64,000 nt of DNA, taken from assembly GCA_002898295.1 (NCBI GenBank), contig BEHX01000002.1:1-64000 (forward strand). Reading direction: 5' to 3'. The first letter of the stretch is position 1; each line of letters opens with the position of its first letter. Under the pieces are notes generated by a model. That model searched no databases and was not told where the DNA came from. It was given only the letters and a program-made list of their open reading frames with translations. The stretch is from a bacterium HR21. Its GTDB lineage: Bacteria > Bacteroidota > Ignavibacteria > Kapaibacteriales > HRBIN21. Shown piece after piece: positions 34,212-54,850 of the stretch. The translations under genes and the position numbers were made by a program.

Positions 34212-35378
34212 ATGCGGTGGGCTTTGCTGGCACAAGTATGGGTAGATGACCCCACCGTGGTTGTCTCAGGGTCGAACGTGCAAGTTTACTACATTGCTCA
34301 AGAGCTGGCCCGACGTGGGGAGGATGTTCTGGTTCTCTTGTCTGGGCATCCAACAGCGTGGGAACGGACGGAGGGAAAGCTCACGCTGATCTCGCTGCCT
34401 GCTTGCGGCAGGGGTCTCCGAGGCTGGTTTCACCCACGCTGGATGCGCCGAGCCGAAGACATCCTGCGAGCATTTGCCCCGGATGTGCTCTACCAGCGAG
34501 GGAAGTTACCCGAAAGTGTACTGGCAGCCCGATATAGCCGCCGGCACGATGCGCTTTTTGTCTGGTGCAGTAACGCCGACAATAGCGCCCGCCGCTGGAA
34601 GTTCGTGCGCAAACGACTGCGATACCGCCGCTCTCCCTGGTGGTTACTGCCGGCACGGCTCCTGGAAGCCGCCGCGGCAGATTTCGCCATCCAACGGGCA
34701 ATACGCTCAGCTGGATTAGTCCTTGCCCAGACCCGCTACCAGCGAGAAACCCTCCGTGCCGTCCTTGGGAAAGAGCCGCAGCTTCTCGGCTCGGGGCATC
34801 CTCTGCCTCCGCCCCCTCCCGAACGCACAGAGCTTCCCCCCGTAGTGCTCTGGTTAGCAAATCTCACACCGATGAAACAGCCGCTGGTCTTCGTCCGCAT
34901 AGCACACCGGCTTCAGCACTGCAACGCCCACTTTCTGATGGCAGGGGCTGCCCCGAACGGAACGCTTCGGGCAACTGTTGAGCATGCGGCACGCCAGCTG
35001 GCGAATTTCTCTTACTTCGGTCCGGTCTCTTTCCGAGATACGGCAGCACTCTTCGCCCGTGCCTCGCTCTTTGTGCTGACCTCCGAATTCGAATTCGAAG
35101 GAATCCCCAACACAGTCATCCAGGCATGTCTCCACGGGGTACCCACTCTCAGTTTACGGAATGATCCCGATGAACTCATCCGCACACACCGCATCGGGGA
35201 GGTTGCTGAAGACGAAGCCGCTCTTGCCGCCGCTGTAGAGCAATGGCTCTCCGACCCTGCTGGTCGGCGCGAAGCTGGTCAGCGTGCGTATCTGCTTGCG
35301 CGCTCCCAGTTCGATATCCACCGTGTGGTAGACCGCCTACAAGAGCTGGTCCGAGGAGCCCTCCGAGGGAGAGCCTGA
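34212..35378 (+). CDS. family 4-type glycosyltransferase
   Basis: A 388-residue GT-B enzyme that adds a sugar from a nucleotide donor. The N-terminal acceptor domain starts with WALLAQVWVDDPTVVVSGSN. The C-terminal donor domain starts near PPVVLWLANLTPMKQPLVFV (the LWLANLTPMK loop) and contains ASLFVLTSEFEFEGIPNTVI, where the ExFEGxPxxxIQA-like motif binds the nucleotide sugar. It follows the DegT gene by 5 bases; the pair probably makes and transfers an amino sugar. Its 3' end overlaps speE by 42 bases. Confidence 0.88.
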   Translation: MRWALLAQVWVDDPTVVVSGSNVQVYYIAQELARRGEDVLVLLSGHPTAWERTEGKLTLISLPACGRGLRGWFHPRWMRRAEDILRAFAPDVLYQRGKLPESVLAARYSRRHDALFVWCSNADNSARRWKFVRKRLRYRRSPWWLLPARLLEAAAADFAIQRAIRSAGLVLAQTRYQRETLRAVLGKEPQLLGSGHPLPPPPPERTELPPVVLWLANLTPMKQPLVFVRIAHRLQHCNAHFLMAGAAPNGTLRATVEHAARQLANFSYFGPVSFRDTAALFARASLFVLTSEFEFEGIPNTVIQACLHGVPTLSLRNDPDELIRTHRIGEVAEDEAALAAAVEQWLSDPAGRREAGQRAYLLARSQFDIHRVVDRLQELVRGALRGRA

Positions 35379-36239
35379 CGCTAATAGGCGCTGGACAAAG
35401 ACGGGTAAAGCGAAAACAGCCCGATGGAGTCCGGGGTCGTAGTAGTGGAGCGTGCCTTGAAGATTCCGATACCGCTGCCAGGCATCCTCCGGGACGAAAT
35501 CGTCAACGGGGTCCCACCGCTTCGAGGCGAGCGTGAAGGACCACAGCCCCGTTGGATAGGTCGGGATCGGCGCCAGATACGAGGCAACATGCGCAAAAAG
35601 CGGGCGCAGTAGGCGATGAACCCGGGGCAATGTCTCCCGATAGACCGGATGCAGGGGGGATTCAGACTGGAGCGCCAAGACTCCCTCCGCTGTCACGATG
35701 CGGCAGCAGTGCCGGTAGAAGGCTTCGTCGAAAAGTCCGCCAGCGATTCCGACGGGATCCGTTGAATCTACGAAGATCGCATCGTAGCTCGCATCGGGTG
35801 CCTGCGCTACGAACTGCGCACCATCTCGGTAGTAGATGCACACCCGAGGGTCCATCAGTGCTGCACTGAGTGCCGGGAAAAATTCCCGGGCAACAGCAAC
35901 CACCTCGGCATCGATCTCCACCAGGTCAACATGTTCCAGCGAAGGGTGACGCAGGATTTCCCGGACTGTGCCTCCATCTCCTCCGCCAATGACCAGCACA
36001 CGCCGCGGCTGCGGCAGGAGGAATAGAGCAGGATGGACAAGCATTTCGTGGTAGATGAACTCGTCCCACTCTGTGACCATCACCGCACCATCCAGCAGGA
36101 GCATGCGCCCGACGGCACGGGATTCCACGACAGTAATCCGCTGGTAAGAGCTGCGGCGGTCACAGAGGATGTTCTCGATATCTGTCGTAAAGCCAGCGTG
36201 CGCGGTATAGTACTCAGCGTAGCGGAACTCTCCGCCCAC
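35337..36239 (-). CDS. speE: spermidine synthase
   Basis: A 300-residue aminopropyltransferase that moves the aminopropyl group from decarboxylated SAM to putrescine. Motifs are the lead-in YAEYYTAHAGFTT, the substrate loop VGRMLLLDGAVMVTEWDE, the cofactor-binding VLVIGGGDGGTVREILRH, the acidic VEIDAEVV, and FVDSTDPVGIAGGLFDEAF (catalytic Asp region). It lies 47 bases after speD and 42 bases overlap the glycosyltransferase on the other strand. Together with speA at 54850-56751 this gives the arginine-to-spermidine path except for agmatine conversion to putrescine. Confidence 0.95.
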   Translation of the reverse strand: MGGEFRYAEYYTAHAGFTTDIENILCDRRSSYQRITVVESRAVGRMLLLDGAVMVTEWDEFIYHEMLVHPALFLLPQPRRVLVIGGGDGGTVREILRHPSLEHVDLVEIDAEVVAVAREFFPALSAALMDPRVCIYYRDGAQFVAQAPDASYDAIFVDSTDPVGIAGGLFDEAFYRHCCRIVTAEGVLALQSESPLHPVYRETLPRVHRLLRPLFAHVASYLAPIPTYPTGLWSFTLASKRWDPVDDFVPEDAWQRYRNLQGTLHYYDPGLHRAVFALPVFVQRLLASGSPSEGSSDQLL

Positions 36240-36286: not shown

Positions 36287-36685
36287 TTATGGCAGAGCAG
36301 GCTCCTCGGTCGGGAGCGGTTTATGCCGCACAGGCTCGCGGAAGAGCCCCCGCTTGAGCTCCATCGAGGAGCTGCTCTGCGCCCGGAGTTCCCGGCGGAG
36401 GTAGTCCGCGATAATCCACGGATCGATGCGCTCCCCACACGTGAAGACATCAACAGCGGCATAGCCGTACTCAGGCCACGTGTGGATGGAGACGTGCGAT
36501 TCGGCAATGACCACCACTCCGCTGACCCCGTGAGGACTGAAGGTATGGAAGGTGTCGGAGACAATCGTGGCGCCCGAGCGGCGCGTTGCCTCTACCAGAA
36601 TCTCCCGAATGCGCTGCTCAGAATTGAGCACTTCGGGATCGCACTGGTAGAGCTCGATGAGCACCTGTCTTCCGAGTGCCTGCAT
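36287..36685 (-). CDS. speD: S-adenosylmethionine decarboxylase proenzyme (short bacterial type)
   Basis: A 132-residue proenzyme that self-cleaves at the Glu-Ser bond in AESHVSIHTWPEYGYAA to make a pyruvoyl cofactor, then supplies decarboxylated SAM for spermidine. Further family motifs are the N-terminal VLIELYQCDPEVL and FTCGERIDPW. The ATG at 36685 begins the family's usual N-terminus (MQALGRQ); the ATG at 36721 would add 12 unconserved residues. The 5' region upstream is unusually long and untranslated; see the leader entry. Confidence 0.95.
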   Translation of the reverse strand: MQALGRQVLIELYQCDPEVLNSEQRIREILVEATRRSGATIVSDTFHTFSPHGVSGVVVIAESHVSIHTWPEYGYAAVDVFTCGERIDPWIIADYLRRELRAQSSSSMELKRGLFREPVRHKPLPTEEPALP

Positions 36686-36900
36686 CGCTACCCCTCCATG
36701 CTGTTGCACCCCCTGCTCCATACCCGGGAGCAGAGCATATCATTGTGCTGAAGTAGCCAGCACAACCGCAGCCCTGGCAGGTGAAGGGGAGTGGGACGCC
36801 GGAAGACAGTCCACGAGCGTGGAACAGCTTGTGACATCCCAACGTCAAGTCTCAACCTGCCAGCCGCTAGCGCATGGGCAACACTGCCCAATATGACAAA

Positions 36901-36933
36901 CAGCACCGCTGCCTGCGGAGGTCAACGGTGCTG
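36901..36933. repeat. 8-bp inverted repeat in speD leader
   Basis: CAGCACCG (36901-36908) and CGGTGCTG (36926-36933), perfect complements with a 17-base loop. On the minus strand it lies within 15 to 40 bases of the predicted speD transcription start, so it could form an early hairpin. Confidence 0.5.
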
Positions 36934-36945
36934 CTCAAAGGCACG

Positions 36946-36953
36946 CGAAAATA
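36946..36953 (-). promoter_or_regulatory. putative -7 promoter element for speD-speE
   Basis: TATTTTCG on the minus strand, one mismatch from TAnnTTTG, about 260 bases before the speD ATG. Confidence 0.35.
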
Positions 36954-37001
36954 CAGAGCCTCCGGGAGACAGCGAGGCTTTGCCACCGCAGATACCTCTT
37001 G

Positions 37002-37025: not shown

Positions 37026-37033
37026 TAATTTTG
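37026..37033 (+). promoter_or_regulatory. putative -7 promoter element for tRNA-Gln
   Basis: TAATTTTG, a full match to TAnnTTTG, ending 10 bases before the tRNA 5' end. The position fits a transcript start at or just before the tRNA. A TTG at 36999-37001 is a possible but rather distant -33 box. Confidence 0.6.
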
Positions 37034-37043
37034 TACGCCTCAT

Positions 37044-37115
37044 TGGGGCGTCGCCAAGCGGTAAGGCAGCGGCCTTTGGAGCCGCCATGCGTAGGTTCGA
37101 ATCCTACCGCCCCAG
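37044..37115 (+). tRNA. tRNA-Gln (anticodon TTG)
   Basis: A full cloverleaf is readable. The acceptor TGGGGCG pairs with CGCCCCA, and the D arm is GCC..GGC. The anticodon stem is GCGGC/GCCGC with loop CTTTGGA, giving anticodon TTG. The T arm is GTAGG-TTCGAAT-CCTAC. The U1-A72 pair and discriminator G are typical of bacterial tRNA-Gln. The CCA end is not encoded (the next bases are CATG). It lies 27 bases before prs, so it is probably processed from the prs-rplY transcript or read together with it. Confidence 0.95.
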
Positions 37116-42649: not shown

Positions 42650-43677
42650 TGCCCACACGCCCGCTTCGAATCGCTCTCGATGTGATGGGCGGGGATTTCG
42701 CCCCGGCTCATGAACTGCTCGGCGCCGTCCAAGCTCTGGCAGAACTGCGTCGTCACGGTGTGGAAATCCTCTTAGTCGGGCATCGGGAGCGCGTCCGCGA
42801 GGTTGCTCAGCGCTTCCATGTGAGCCTCGACCGCTTGCCGCTTCTGCATGCTGAAGAGGTCATCACGATGGAGGATGACCCGACCAGCGCCGTCCGGCAT
42901 AAGCGCAACTCTTCCCTTGTCTTCAGTATCGAGCTGCATGCCCGCGGCGAGGTGGACGCCGTTGTCTCCACAGGAAACACCGGTGCTGTGGTAACTGCTG
43001 CCACGCTACTTCTGGGAAAGGTTTCCGGCGTCTCTCGTCCGACCATCGGGACACTGGTCCCCACGGAGCGGCATCATCCATCTATCCTGCTGGATGTCGG
43101 CGCAAACGTAGACTGCAAACCCCGCCACTTCTATGAATTTGCCCTCATGGGCAGTGTCTACGCCCGGGAGCTGCTCGGCATTGAGCGCCCGCGGGTTGCG
43201 CTGCTCAATATCGGCGAGGAGGAAAGCAAGGGCACGAGCACGCTTCGTGAAGCCTACCGACTCCTGAAGAGTCACTGCCCGAACTTCATCGGCAATGTTG
43301 AGGGGCGGGATATCCTGCGCGGGGCTGCCGATGTAGTTGTCTGCGACGGCTTCGTGGGCAACATTCTGCTGAAGTTCGGGGAAAGTCTTGCCGCTGCGTG
43401 GCGAGCACGGCTCCGCTCGCTGGCAAGTCGGGACCTATGGCGACGCGTGTTCTTGTGGTTCTTCCGCCCAACGCTGCGGCGTCTACTGCGAGAATTTGAC
43501 TACCAGAGTTACGGCGGGGTCCCCCTGCTGGGCGTCCGAGGAGTTGTCATTGTCGGACACGGACGCTCAAGCCCTGTTGCAATCCGCAACATGCTCTTGC
43601 GAGCGCACGAAGCCATCCAGCGCGCTCTGGTCCAGCGCCTGGAAGCCGCCCTCCAGGTCAACCCCATCAGTGCCTAA
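42649..43677 (+). CDS. plsX: phosphate acyltransferase PlsX
   Basis: A 342-residue enzyme that converts acyl-ACP to acyl-phosphate for the first step of phospholipid synthesis with PlsY. Recognised by RIALDVMGGDFAPAHELLGA, the RHKRNSSLV loop, VVSTGNTGAVVTAAT, DVGANVDCKP and FIGNVEGRDILRG. The start ATG overlaps the rpmF stop as TGATG, fixing the N-terminus; the longer frame to 42571 is inside rpmF in another frame. fabH follows 15 bases later. Confidence 0.97.
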   Translation: MPTRPLRIALDVMGGDFAPAHELLGAVQALAELRRHGVEILLVGHRERVREVAQRFHVSLDRLPLLHAEEVITMEDDPTSAVRHKRNSSLVFSIELHARGEVDAVVSTGNTGAVVTAATLLLGKVSGVSRPTIGTLVPTERHHPSILLDVGANVDCKPRHFYEFALMGSVYARELLGIERPRVALLNIGEEESKGTSTLREAYRLLKSHCPNFIGNVEGRDILRGAADVVVCDGFVGNILLKFGESLAAAWRARLRSLASRDLWRRVFLWFFRPTLRRLLREFDYQSYGGVPLLGVRGVVIVGHGRSSPVAIRNMLLRAHEAIQRALVQRLEAALQVNPISA

Positions 43678-54010: not shown

Positions 54011-54850
54011 TTACTCAGTGCCAACCCACCGGAGCCCGAACCCAAAACTCCGCGAGGGATGCGGGAACGGGCGTGCTAGGTCATCGAAGAGCTGCTCTCC
54101 GTAGCCGAAGAGCGCAATCGGGAGCGCACCGAGCGTGATGCCCAGCTCCCCACGGTATTCGTGCCGCACTACTACCGGCGCTTGGAAAAGCGCCAGCCGA
54201 TACGCTACAGACCCAAAACTACGCAAATGTCCCAGATGTGCGACGAGGCTTGCGCGCACAGCCAGAGATCCTCGCAGACGCTGCCACCGGAGCTCATCTG
54301 TTCCCCGAACGCGGTAATCCTGGGCAATCACGAACCCGTACACCCGCCCTTCCAGCACGGCTCTCCATCCTCTGCCCCAGCCAGAGCGGTACTGCGCCCC
54401 TGCGAAGGGTCCGTGGAGAATCAGGACACGCTTTGTCGGCTGGTATCCAGCTACAGGCTCGTCAGTATCAGGAGGGTCGGCATTGTCAATTTCGTGCTTG
54501 CAGAAGTGCAGTAGCCCACCGTAGAATTTCCATCGGGAACGTTGCCACAGGAGGACGAGCTGTTCCTCCCACCGTGCCCCACGGGGATTGAACCCAATGT
54601 CGTTGAGCGAGTTCGCCTGCAGGAGATGGCTGGCAATGCCGACAAGCCAGAGGCTATCGCGTAGCTGCACTAGTGGCAGAGAGAGTGCCAGGACAACGAC
54701 CCAAGCTCTCTCATCATCGGCGGAGCGGAATCCGCGGTGGAGGAGTGCTGTAACCCCGTTGGGCGTATAGCTGTGATGAGCTGTCACAAGCTCCTGGGCA
54801 CAAAGCTCCAGAGAGCCCAGACCGAGCAGGAAGATGCCCCAGCAGCGCAT
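54011..54850 (-). CDS. predicted outer-membrane protein
   Basis: A 279-residue exported protein with signal peptide GIFLLGLGSLELCAQE. The mature part is a run of alternating strands (WVVVLALSLPLVQLRDSLWL, WKFYGGLLHFCKHEID, YRSGWGRGWRAVLEGRVYGF) ending FGFGLRWVG, consistent with an outer-membrane barrel. The HxCKHxIDN-type segment (HFCKHEIDNADPPD) is a distinctive feature. I recognise no named family. The ATG at 54850 overlaps the speA stop (TAATG), which fixes the start over the longer frame to 54955. The SBBP gene lies 29 bases downstream. Confidence 0.65.
   Translation of the reverse strand: MRCWGIFLLGLGSLELCAQELVTAHHSYTPNGVTALLHRGFRSADDERAWVVVLALSLPLVQLRDSLWLVGIASHLLQANSLNDIGFNPRGARWEEQLVLLWQRSRWKFYGGLLHFCKHEIDNADPPDTDEPVAGYQPTKRVLILHGPFAGAQYRSGWGRGWRAVLEGRVYGFVIAQDYRVRGTDELRWQRLRGSLAVRASLVAHLGHLRSFGSVAYRLALFQAPVVVRHEYRGELGITLGALPIALFGYGEQLFDDLARPFPHPSRSFGFGLRWVGTE

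Follow-up and report, generated by a model that had tools for sequence, protein, structure and literature searches.

The speD gene of the bacterium HR21 is preceded by a long leader that is almost certainly a conserved, structured cis-regulatory RNA. Its conserved core directly abuts the start of speD in all 17 members found, which fall into a few lineages of Bacteroidota, and part of the core is complementary to the ribosome-binding site and first codons of the gene. On a model built from folding and complementarity, the leader probably acts in cis as a translational switch of speD, most likely as a riboswitch responding to a metabolite from the S-adenosylmethionine (SAM)/polyamine pathway. 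The window analysed here is the whole 64,000-nucleotide stretch of DNA that contains the gene.

A long leader upstream of speD

The start codon of speD occupies positions 36685-36683 on the minus strand of the window, and speE is the next gene after it (Table 1). The promoter-like element upstream of speD, TATTTTCG, has three exact copies in the window against 0.46 expected, and in an alignment of the six genomes of the genus T36953, A36952, T36949, T36948 and G36946 are invariant. This indicates that TATTTTCG is a conserved element and that, if it is used and transcription begins a few bases past it, the leader is about 255 nt long. A script scan of the window returned 18 such elements, 15 of which stand 14-112 nt ahead of an open reading frame (ORF) of at least 150 aa. 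The remaining three are that of speD, for which no ORF is listed because speD is shorter than 150 aa, one at 43110 (minus strand) with no ORF found, and TAGTTTTG at 54221 (minus strand). The last is separated by 232 nt from the first downstream ORF that reaches 150 aa and may mark another long leader. A preliminary description of this DNA had pointed to a long leader behind a promoter-like element, to the closeness of most other such elements to their genes, and to a perfect inverted repeat of 8 bp close to where the leader begins. All three observations hold; the repeat is CAGCACCG/CGGTGCTG (36926-36933 and 36901-36908) and forms hairpin P1.

The upstream neighbour of speD is a tRNA-Gln gene on the opposite strand, starting at 37044. 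This divergent gene has a similar promoter element, TAATTTTG (37026-37033, plus strand), which is conserved in the six genus genomes. A terminator scan found no terminator-like site between the speD promoter element and the ATG; its sole hit, at 36958-36970, lies upstream of the element. The folding of the speD leader surpassed that of all 200 dinucleotide shuffles (z = -3.76).

Table 1. Features of the speD leader and adjacent genes in the window, in the order of transcription.
Feature	Position	Strand	Remarks
Promoter-like element TATTTTCG of speD	36946..36953	-	TA..TT.G invariant in 6/6 genus genomes
Hairpin P1, genus-specific	36901..36933	-	Holds the 8-bp inverted repeat (part of repeat I5); different hairpins there in other lineages
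Hairpin P2, genus-specific	36876..36889	-
Conserved leader core through start codon	36683..36875	-	Covariance model R2, 164.9 bits, E 3.3e-36; window sequence is in the R2 training set
P0, 5′ strand GCGCU	36869..36873	-	Partner 36706-36710; 16/16 pair, hardly any variation
PA, 5′ strand	36855..36867	-	Partner within 36768-36782; 13 pairs, 4 with both-sided changes, 100% of cells paired
P4, 5′ strand	36834..36841	-	Partner 36792-36799; 8 pairs, 6 with both-sided changes, 99.2% paired
Loop GUCUUCCGG	36799..36807	-	Complementary to speD codons 4-7 (36667-36675); 15/15 loop-bearing members pair
Anti-Shine-Dalgarno segment, CUCCCCUUC in window, CUACCCUUC in most members	36783..36791	-	99.3% of cells paired with Shine-Dalgarno sequence and spacer
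Helix PB	36742..36766	-	Anchors, 16 sequences: GUUG/CAAU base fixed, upper pairs vary, pairing kept
Helix PC	36711..36735	-	Sequence differs among lineages, pairing kept
Shine-Dalgarno sequence and spacer GGAGGGGUAG	36688..36697	-
speD, S-adenosylmethionine decarboxylase	36287..36685	-	PF02675 2.5e-43; TIGR03330 4.6e-45
speE, polyamine aminopropyltransferase	35337..36239	-	NF002010 3.9e-98

A conserved core with covarying helices

The consensus fold of the six genus leaders (RNAalifold) contains 73 pairs, 15 of which show a both-sided change in at least one sequence. A covariance search of speD leaders had been proposed in the preliminary description, which took a lack of conserved structure among relatives as evidence against the idea; such structure was found. 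In an alignment of 16 sequences (A6), 99.6% of the cells in P0, PA, P4 and the pairing between the leader and the Shine-Dalgarno (SD) sequence are standard pairs, compared with only 40-53% when the partner strand is slid by 1-3 columns. Both-sided changes were seen in 10 pairs, four of them in PA and six in P4; shuffles gave 4.5, none of 500 reaching 10, whilst further pair types on A6 showed no excess (20 vs 22.1 in shuffles). P0 is nearly invariant, which leaves it little covariation support, and since both P0 and the SD pairing lack both-sided changes on A6, covariation proves neither of them. The conservation of G-U pairs, for example in P0, favours this strand. We dropped a 5′ GCACCCC as a candidate partner for P0, as it is missing from some genus members.

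Helices PB and PC were read by anchors, since MAFFT leaves them unaligned across clades. The strands of PC are CUCUGCUCC and GGAGCAGGG in the genus; Rhodothermus has UCCCCGUUUG and its partner, and one sequence from a third family has CCCCGCC and GGCGGGG.

Distribution of the leader and phylogeny of SpeD

The speD gene, the tRNA-Gln gene and the leader are present in all six genomes of the window's family, which comprises one genus. A covariance model built from the six genus leaders (R1) matched 7 of 123 genomes of the order, namely the six of the genus and one chance match, and 7 of 391 genomes of the class (five of the genus and two chance matches), so that neither the order nor the class search yielded a credible member beyond the genus. 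A sample of the phylum gave 8 of 395 genomes: the window's own and seven from two other families, Rhodothermus and a third family, at E values from 8.2e-22 to 2.0e-13. A pattern scan of genome contigs found 19 loci. R1 backs eight of these, in records named Candidatus Kapaibacterium, Candidatus Kapabacteria, Bacteroidota, Rhodothermus and KatS3mg041 and on one contig binned as Gloeomargarita; the other 11 have no support from R1 and were dropped.

A second model (R2), built from 16 core sequences, matched 10 of 244 genomes in the class of Rhodothermus, including a fourth lineage (G492, 1.2e-14), and 9 of 375 genomes of the phylum at E 0.001 or better. Among the R2 matches only G492 was new to the model, the others being in it already or coming from the same genomes. 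The 17 distinct members comprise six from the genus, seven Rhodothermus-like sequences, two from the third family, and the loci L032 and L095. Those carriers whose habitat can be judged presumably come from hot environments. Model matches at L019 (in our judgement lying in coding-like sequence), L021 (a P1-like hairpin only), L020 (15.9 bits) and, for R2, L096 (66 nt) were set aside as chance.

speD occurs in 80 of the 395 phylum genomes, and all nine phylum genomes matched by R2 are among those 80. Other speD leaders were inspected in two sets. In the first, of 24 loci, 21 leaders lack the conserved blocks; the remainder are two known carriers (L058 and L059) and one locus without a recognised start (L048). 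In the further set, of 14 loci, the 11 leaders inspected lack the element, and the start was not found in the other three. Where these leaders were searched with R2, one search of 24 sources matched only L095 and L096 and none of the leaders, and another gave three matches of at most 11.2 bits. In six loci from other Bacteroidota (L048, L049, L050, L056, L063 and L068) the open frame that contains the SpeD domain measures about 430-450 aa, which may reflect fusion to another enzyme.

We calculated a SpeD tree that includes 32 of 36 chosen loci (L010, L060, L074 and L075 are missing and L023 was not chosen) and in which long branches meet. A single clade (98/95) unites SpeD from 16 members; within it the genus falls, at weak support, among Rhodothermus-like sequences, and SpeD from two loci of the same order as the window (L005 and L006) is placed far from this clade. 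The simplest reading is that speD and speE were transferred together with the leader; differential loss is a possible alternative. The element and speD also occur at L032:564-813 (minus strand), on a contig from the bin of a cyanobacterium, Gloeomargarita sp. SKYG116, where SpeD falls in the Bacteroidota element clade; this placement reflects either a binning error or a transfer.

Complementarity to the start of speD

The anti-SD segment of most members, CUACCCUUC, is complementary to GGAGGG(G)UAG, which is the SD sequence and its spacer, and the CUCCCCUUC of the window has one mismatch in nine. G002 has lost both the UA of the leader and the usual spacer, and by our own reading the G492 leader, CUGCCCUCC, retains pairing at nine positions. 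Further upstream in the leader, GUCUUCC, in a loop that is absent from G004 and G492, pairs over nine columns with GGAAGAC or GGAAGGC in codons 4-7. Columns 89 and 247 hold a compensatory pair, G-C in 11 and A-U in 4 of 15 members, in which a leader base beside P4 and the third base of a Leu codon change together. When the codon pairing was included in the alignment (A7), both-sided changes in it affected 30 cells compared with 10.8 in shuffles (0 of 500 as high); counted as pairs, there was no excess, with 5 against a shuffle mean of 3.7 and 115 of 500 as high. The codon for Arg6 is AGA or AGG in all 16 aligned members, and these codons make up 4.6-7.4% of Arg codons in sampled genes. Of the two members without the loop, G492 has CGC as its Arg codon and G004 keeps AGG.

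Control genes rarely match the pairing that the leader makes with its own gene start. This comparison covered 15 of the 16 sequences (L023, nearly identical to L022, was omitted, and L032 was compared with the genes of another genome). Of 43 control genes, 0, 7, 1, 0, 0 and 0 did so in the six genus members; in six Rhodothermus members the number was between 0 and 4 out of 65, and each of the three other sequences had 3 out of 69. The SD part or the coding part taken alone was mostly unremarkable against control genes. In a shuffle test of 13 of the 17 members, 11 segments surpassed at least 97.8% of dinucleotide shuffles in pairing with the start region, whilst L002 (109/500) and L003 (49/500) were not exceptional. 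The leader window that pairs best with the start overlaps the segment in 10 of the 13, and lies elsewhere in L003, L026 and L095. GGAGG stands ahead of 1 of 43 other genes sampled in the window, of 4 among 65 Rhodothermus genes and of 13 among 69 third-family genes. The strong SD of speD is thus unusual in the window's genome; the phylum is described as naturally lacking SD sequences (PMC6847099).

Two proposed competing shapes and alternative explanations

We propose that the core can adopt two shapes. Shape 1 would be a four-way junction in which P0 closes PA (with P4 as its extension), PB and PC, ending just before the SD. In shape 2, the segment around the P4 3′ strand, GUCUUCC-(A/G)-GCAUC..CUACCCUUC, would pair with the start of speD, CUACCCUUC contacting GGAGGG(G)UAG, GUCUUCC contacting codons 4-7 and, in some members, GCAUC lying opposite the region around the AUG. 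We take this GCAUC contact, which falls short of full pairing in G005 and G004, to be incidental. Shape 2 would block ribosome entry. In nested folding, pairing of the start region competes with PA and P4. Unconstrained folding at 60 °C gives an SD–anti-SD probability above 0.6 in five of seven members tested (of the 17), and a value near zero for the window's own sequence, where the junction is favoured. When each shape was forced in all 17 members at 60 °C, subtracting the energy of the antisense shape from that of the junction gave values between -4.6 and +7.9 kcal/mol. Only four of the 17 forced junctions leave the whole SD stretch unpaired, so that release of the SD by the junction is to be taken as a model.

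On this model the shapes would switch in the cell, with translation as the controlled step, and a small molecule would stabilise the junction. If the folds are nested, the junction would leave the start region accessible and represent the ON state; if instead the start region pairs on an intact PA, as a pseudoknot, the same ligand would turn speD off. We infer a small-molecule ligand from the gene context, speD and speE, from which sensing of a polyamine or of SAM is plausible. The feedback element that the preliminary description envisaged here stands as far as a regulatory element is concerned, since every member lies directly upstream of speD and is able to pair with the start region; its sensing part keeps the standing of a plausible reading.

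A leader with no small-molecule pocket of its own might instead answer to ions (total polyamine, Mg2+) or to temperature. The start region is indeed paired in one shape and the judged carriers appear to be from hot habitats, yet the junction sequence (GCUAGCGGCUGG, GCGGUUG) is conserved far beyond the needs of pairing. Nor is the temperature trend of the SD–anti-SD probability uniform across the seven members, as a thermometer would lead one to expect: from 37 to 75 °C it stays above 0.9 in three, falls in two, rises in one and is near zero in one. We consider such a response unlikely. Control of speD by a protein bound at the junction, be it SpeD, SpeE or another RNA-binding protein, would also account for a conserved structured leader that occurs ahead of speD and nowhere else in the searched genomes. 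No tested feature suggests a protein, however, and the leader resembles no protein-binding leader in Rfam, which makes this account improbable.

That the sequence encodes a small upstream peptide, or an RNA separate from the mRNA, in place of a leader is more doubtful still. A tiny frame, AUG-YGC-UAG, does open the core in the six genus and seven Rhodothermus sequences, but its AUG is missing from the third family, L032 and L095, the distances between invariant blocks (88, 81, 70, 93, 92 and 89) differ by amounts that are not multiples of 3, and in every member the core continues without a break to the start codon of speD. That the leader has no function and has simply not yet diverged since a recent transfer of the speDE operon is the least credible reading. 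In its favour, the genus SpeD lies inside the Rhodothermus-like clade (with weak support inside a clade supported as a whole at 98/95), so that these sequences may have diverged more recently than the species did; against it, selection on structure is needed to explain the pairs changed on both sides in PA and P4 and the turnover of PB and PC with pairing kept.

Implications

Returning to the translational switch, we rate as evenly balanced the more specific proposal that the leader represents a new polyamine-pathway riboswitch class. This class, so far found in a small number of Bacteroidota lineages of which several are heat-loving, would apparently have moved with speDE and would act through an antisense arm on the ribosome-binding site, the start codon and the first codons. 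Its ligand could be a spermine- or thermospermine-type polyamine of the kind that Rhodothermus enzymes can produce, SAM or decarboxylated SAM. As an expression platform, an antisense arm extending into coding sequence would be unusual. If true, this would be an independent second case of such sensing ahead of speD, with no detectable relation to the spermidine riboswitch class of 2023 (13 examples), before which claims of polyamine riboswitches were unconvincing according to PMC10853860. It would operate in hosts with enzymes capable of forming spermine and thermospermine: when produced in E. coli, the two aminopropyltransferases of R. marinus both gave spermine, one making mainly spermidine and the other thermospermine too (PMC11107197). 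Rhodothermus marinus is an organism in which the leader can be tested at once, one strain having been genetically modified already (PMC5822342).

Comparison with known riboswitches

The preliminary description recognised no known SAM riboswitch in the leader, and Rfam agrees. Searched up to E 10, the window leader returned chance microRNA matches only and no SAM family. At gathering thresholds, the window and six loci gave tRNA alone, and up to E 5 nothing matched L022 and one chance match, to no SAM family, fell in L095. Among the matches listed in searches of the literature, outside subscription papers and bioRxiv, on speD/polyamine or Rhodothermus riboswitches and candidate structured RNAs, none describes the element in its title or the opening of its abstract.

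The spermidine riboswitch is a four-stem variant of SAM-I, with its examples in Gram-positive bacteria, that acts on transcription termination (PMC10853860). It and the speD leader both stand ahead of polyamine genes including speD and speE, and the pathway that it senses is the one also proposed here. In contrast, the speD leader has no match to Rfam or to SAM-I, occurs in Bacteroidota and is devoid of terminator-like sites from promoter to ATG.

Among translational riboswitches, SAM-III (the SMK box) works via pairing between the SD and an anti-SD, and its gene is metK. The speD leader likewise has an anti-SD complementary to the SD, a likeness that exists at the level of complementarity, but it matches no family, its core is much larger, its complementarity reaches into codons 4-7, and its gene is speD rather than metK. 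SAM-II and similar translational riboswitches are pseudoknotted. The speD leader might likewise form a pseudoknot involving the ribosome-binding site, but it has no Rfam match and its core is about 180-210 nt long with PA, P4, PB, PC and P0. The general trait of riboswitches, a conserved, structured, aptamer-like domain in the 5′ leader, is present here in four lineages.
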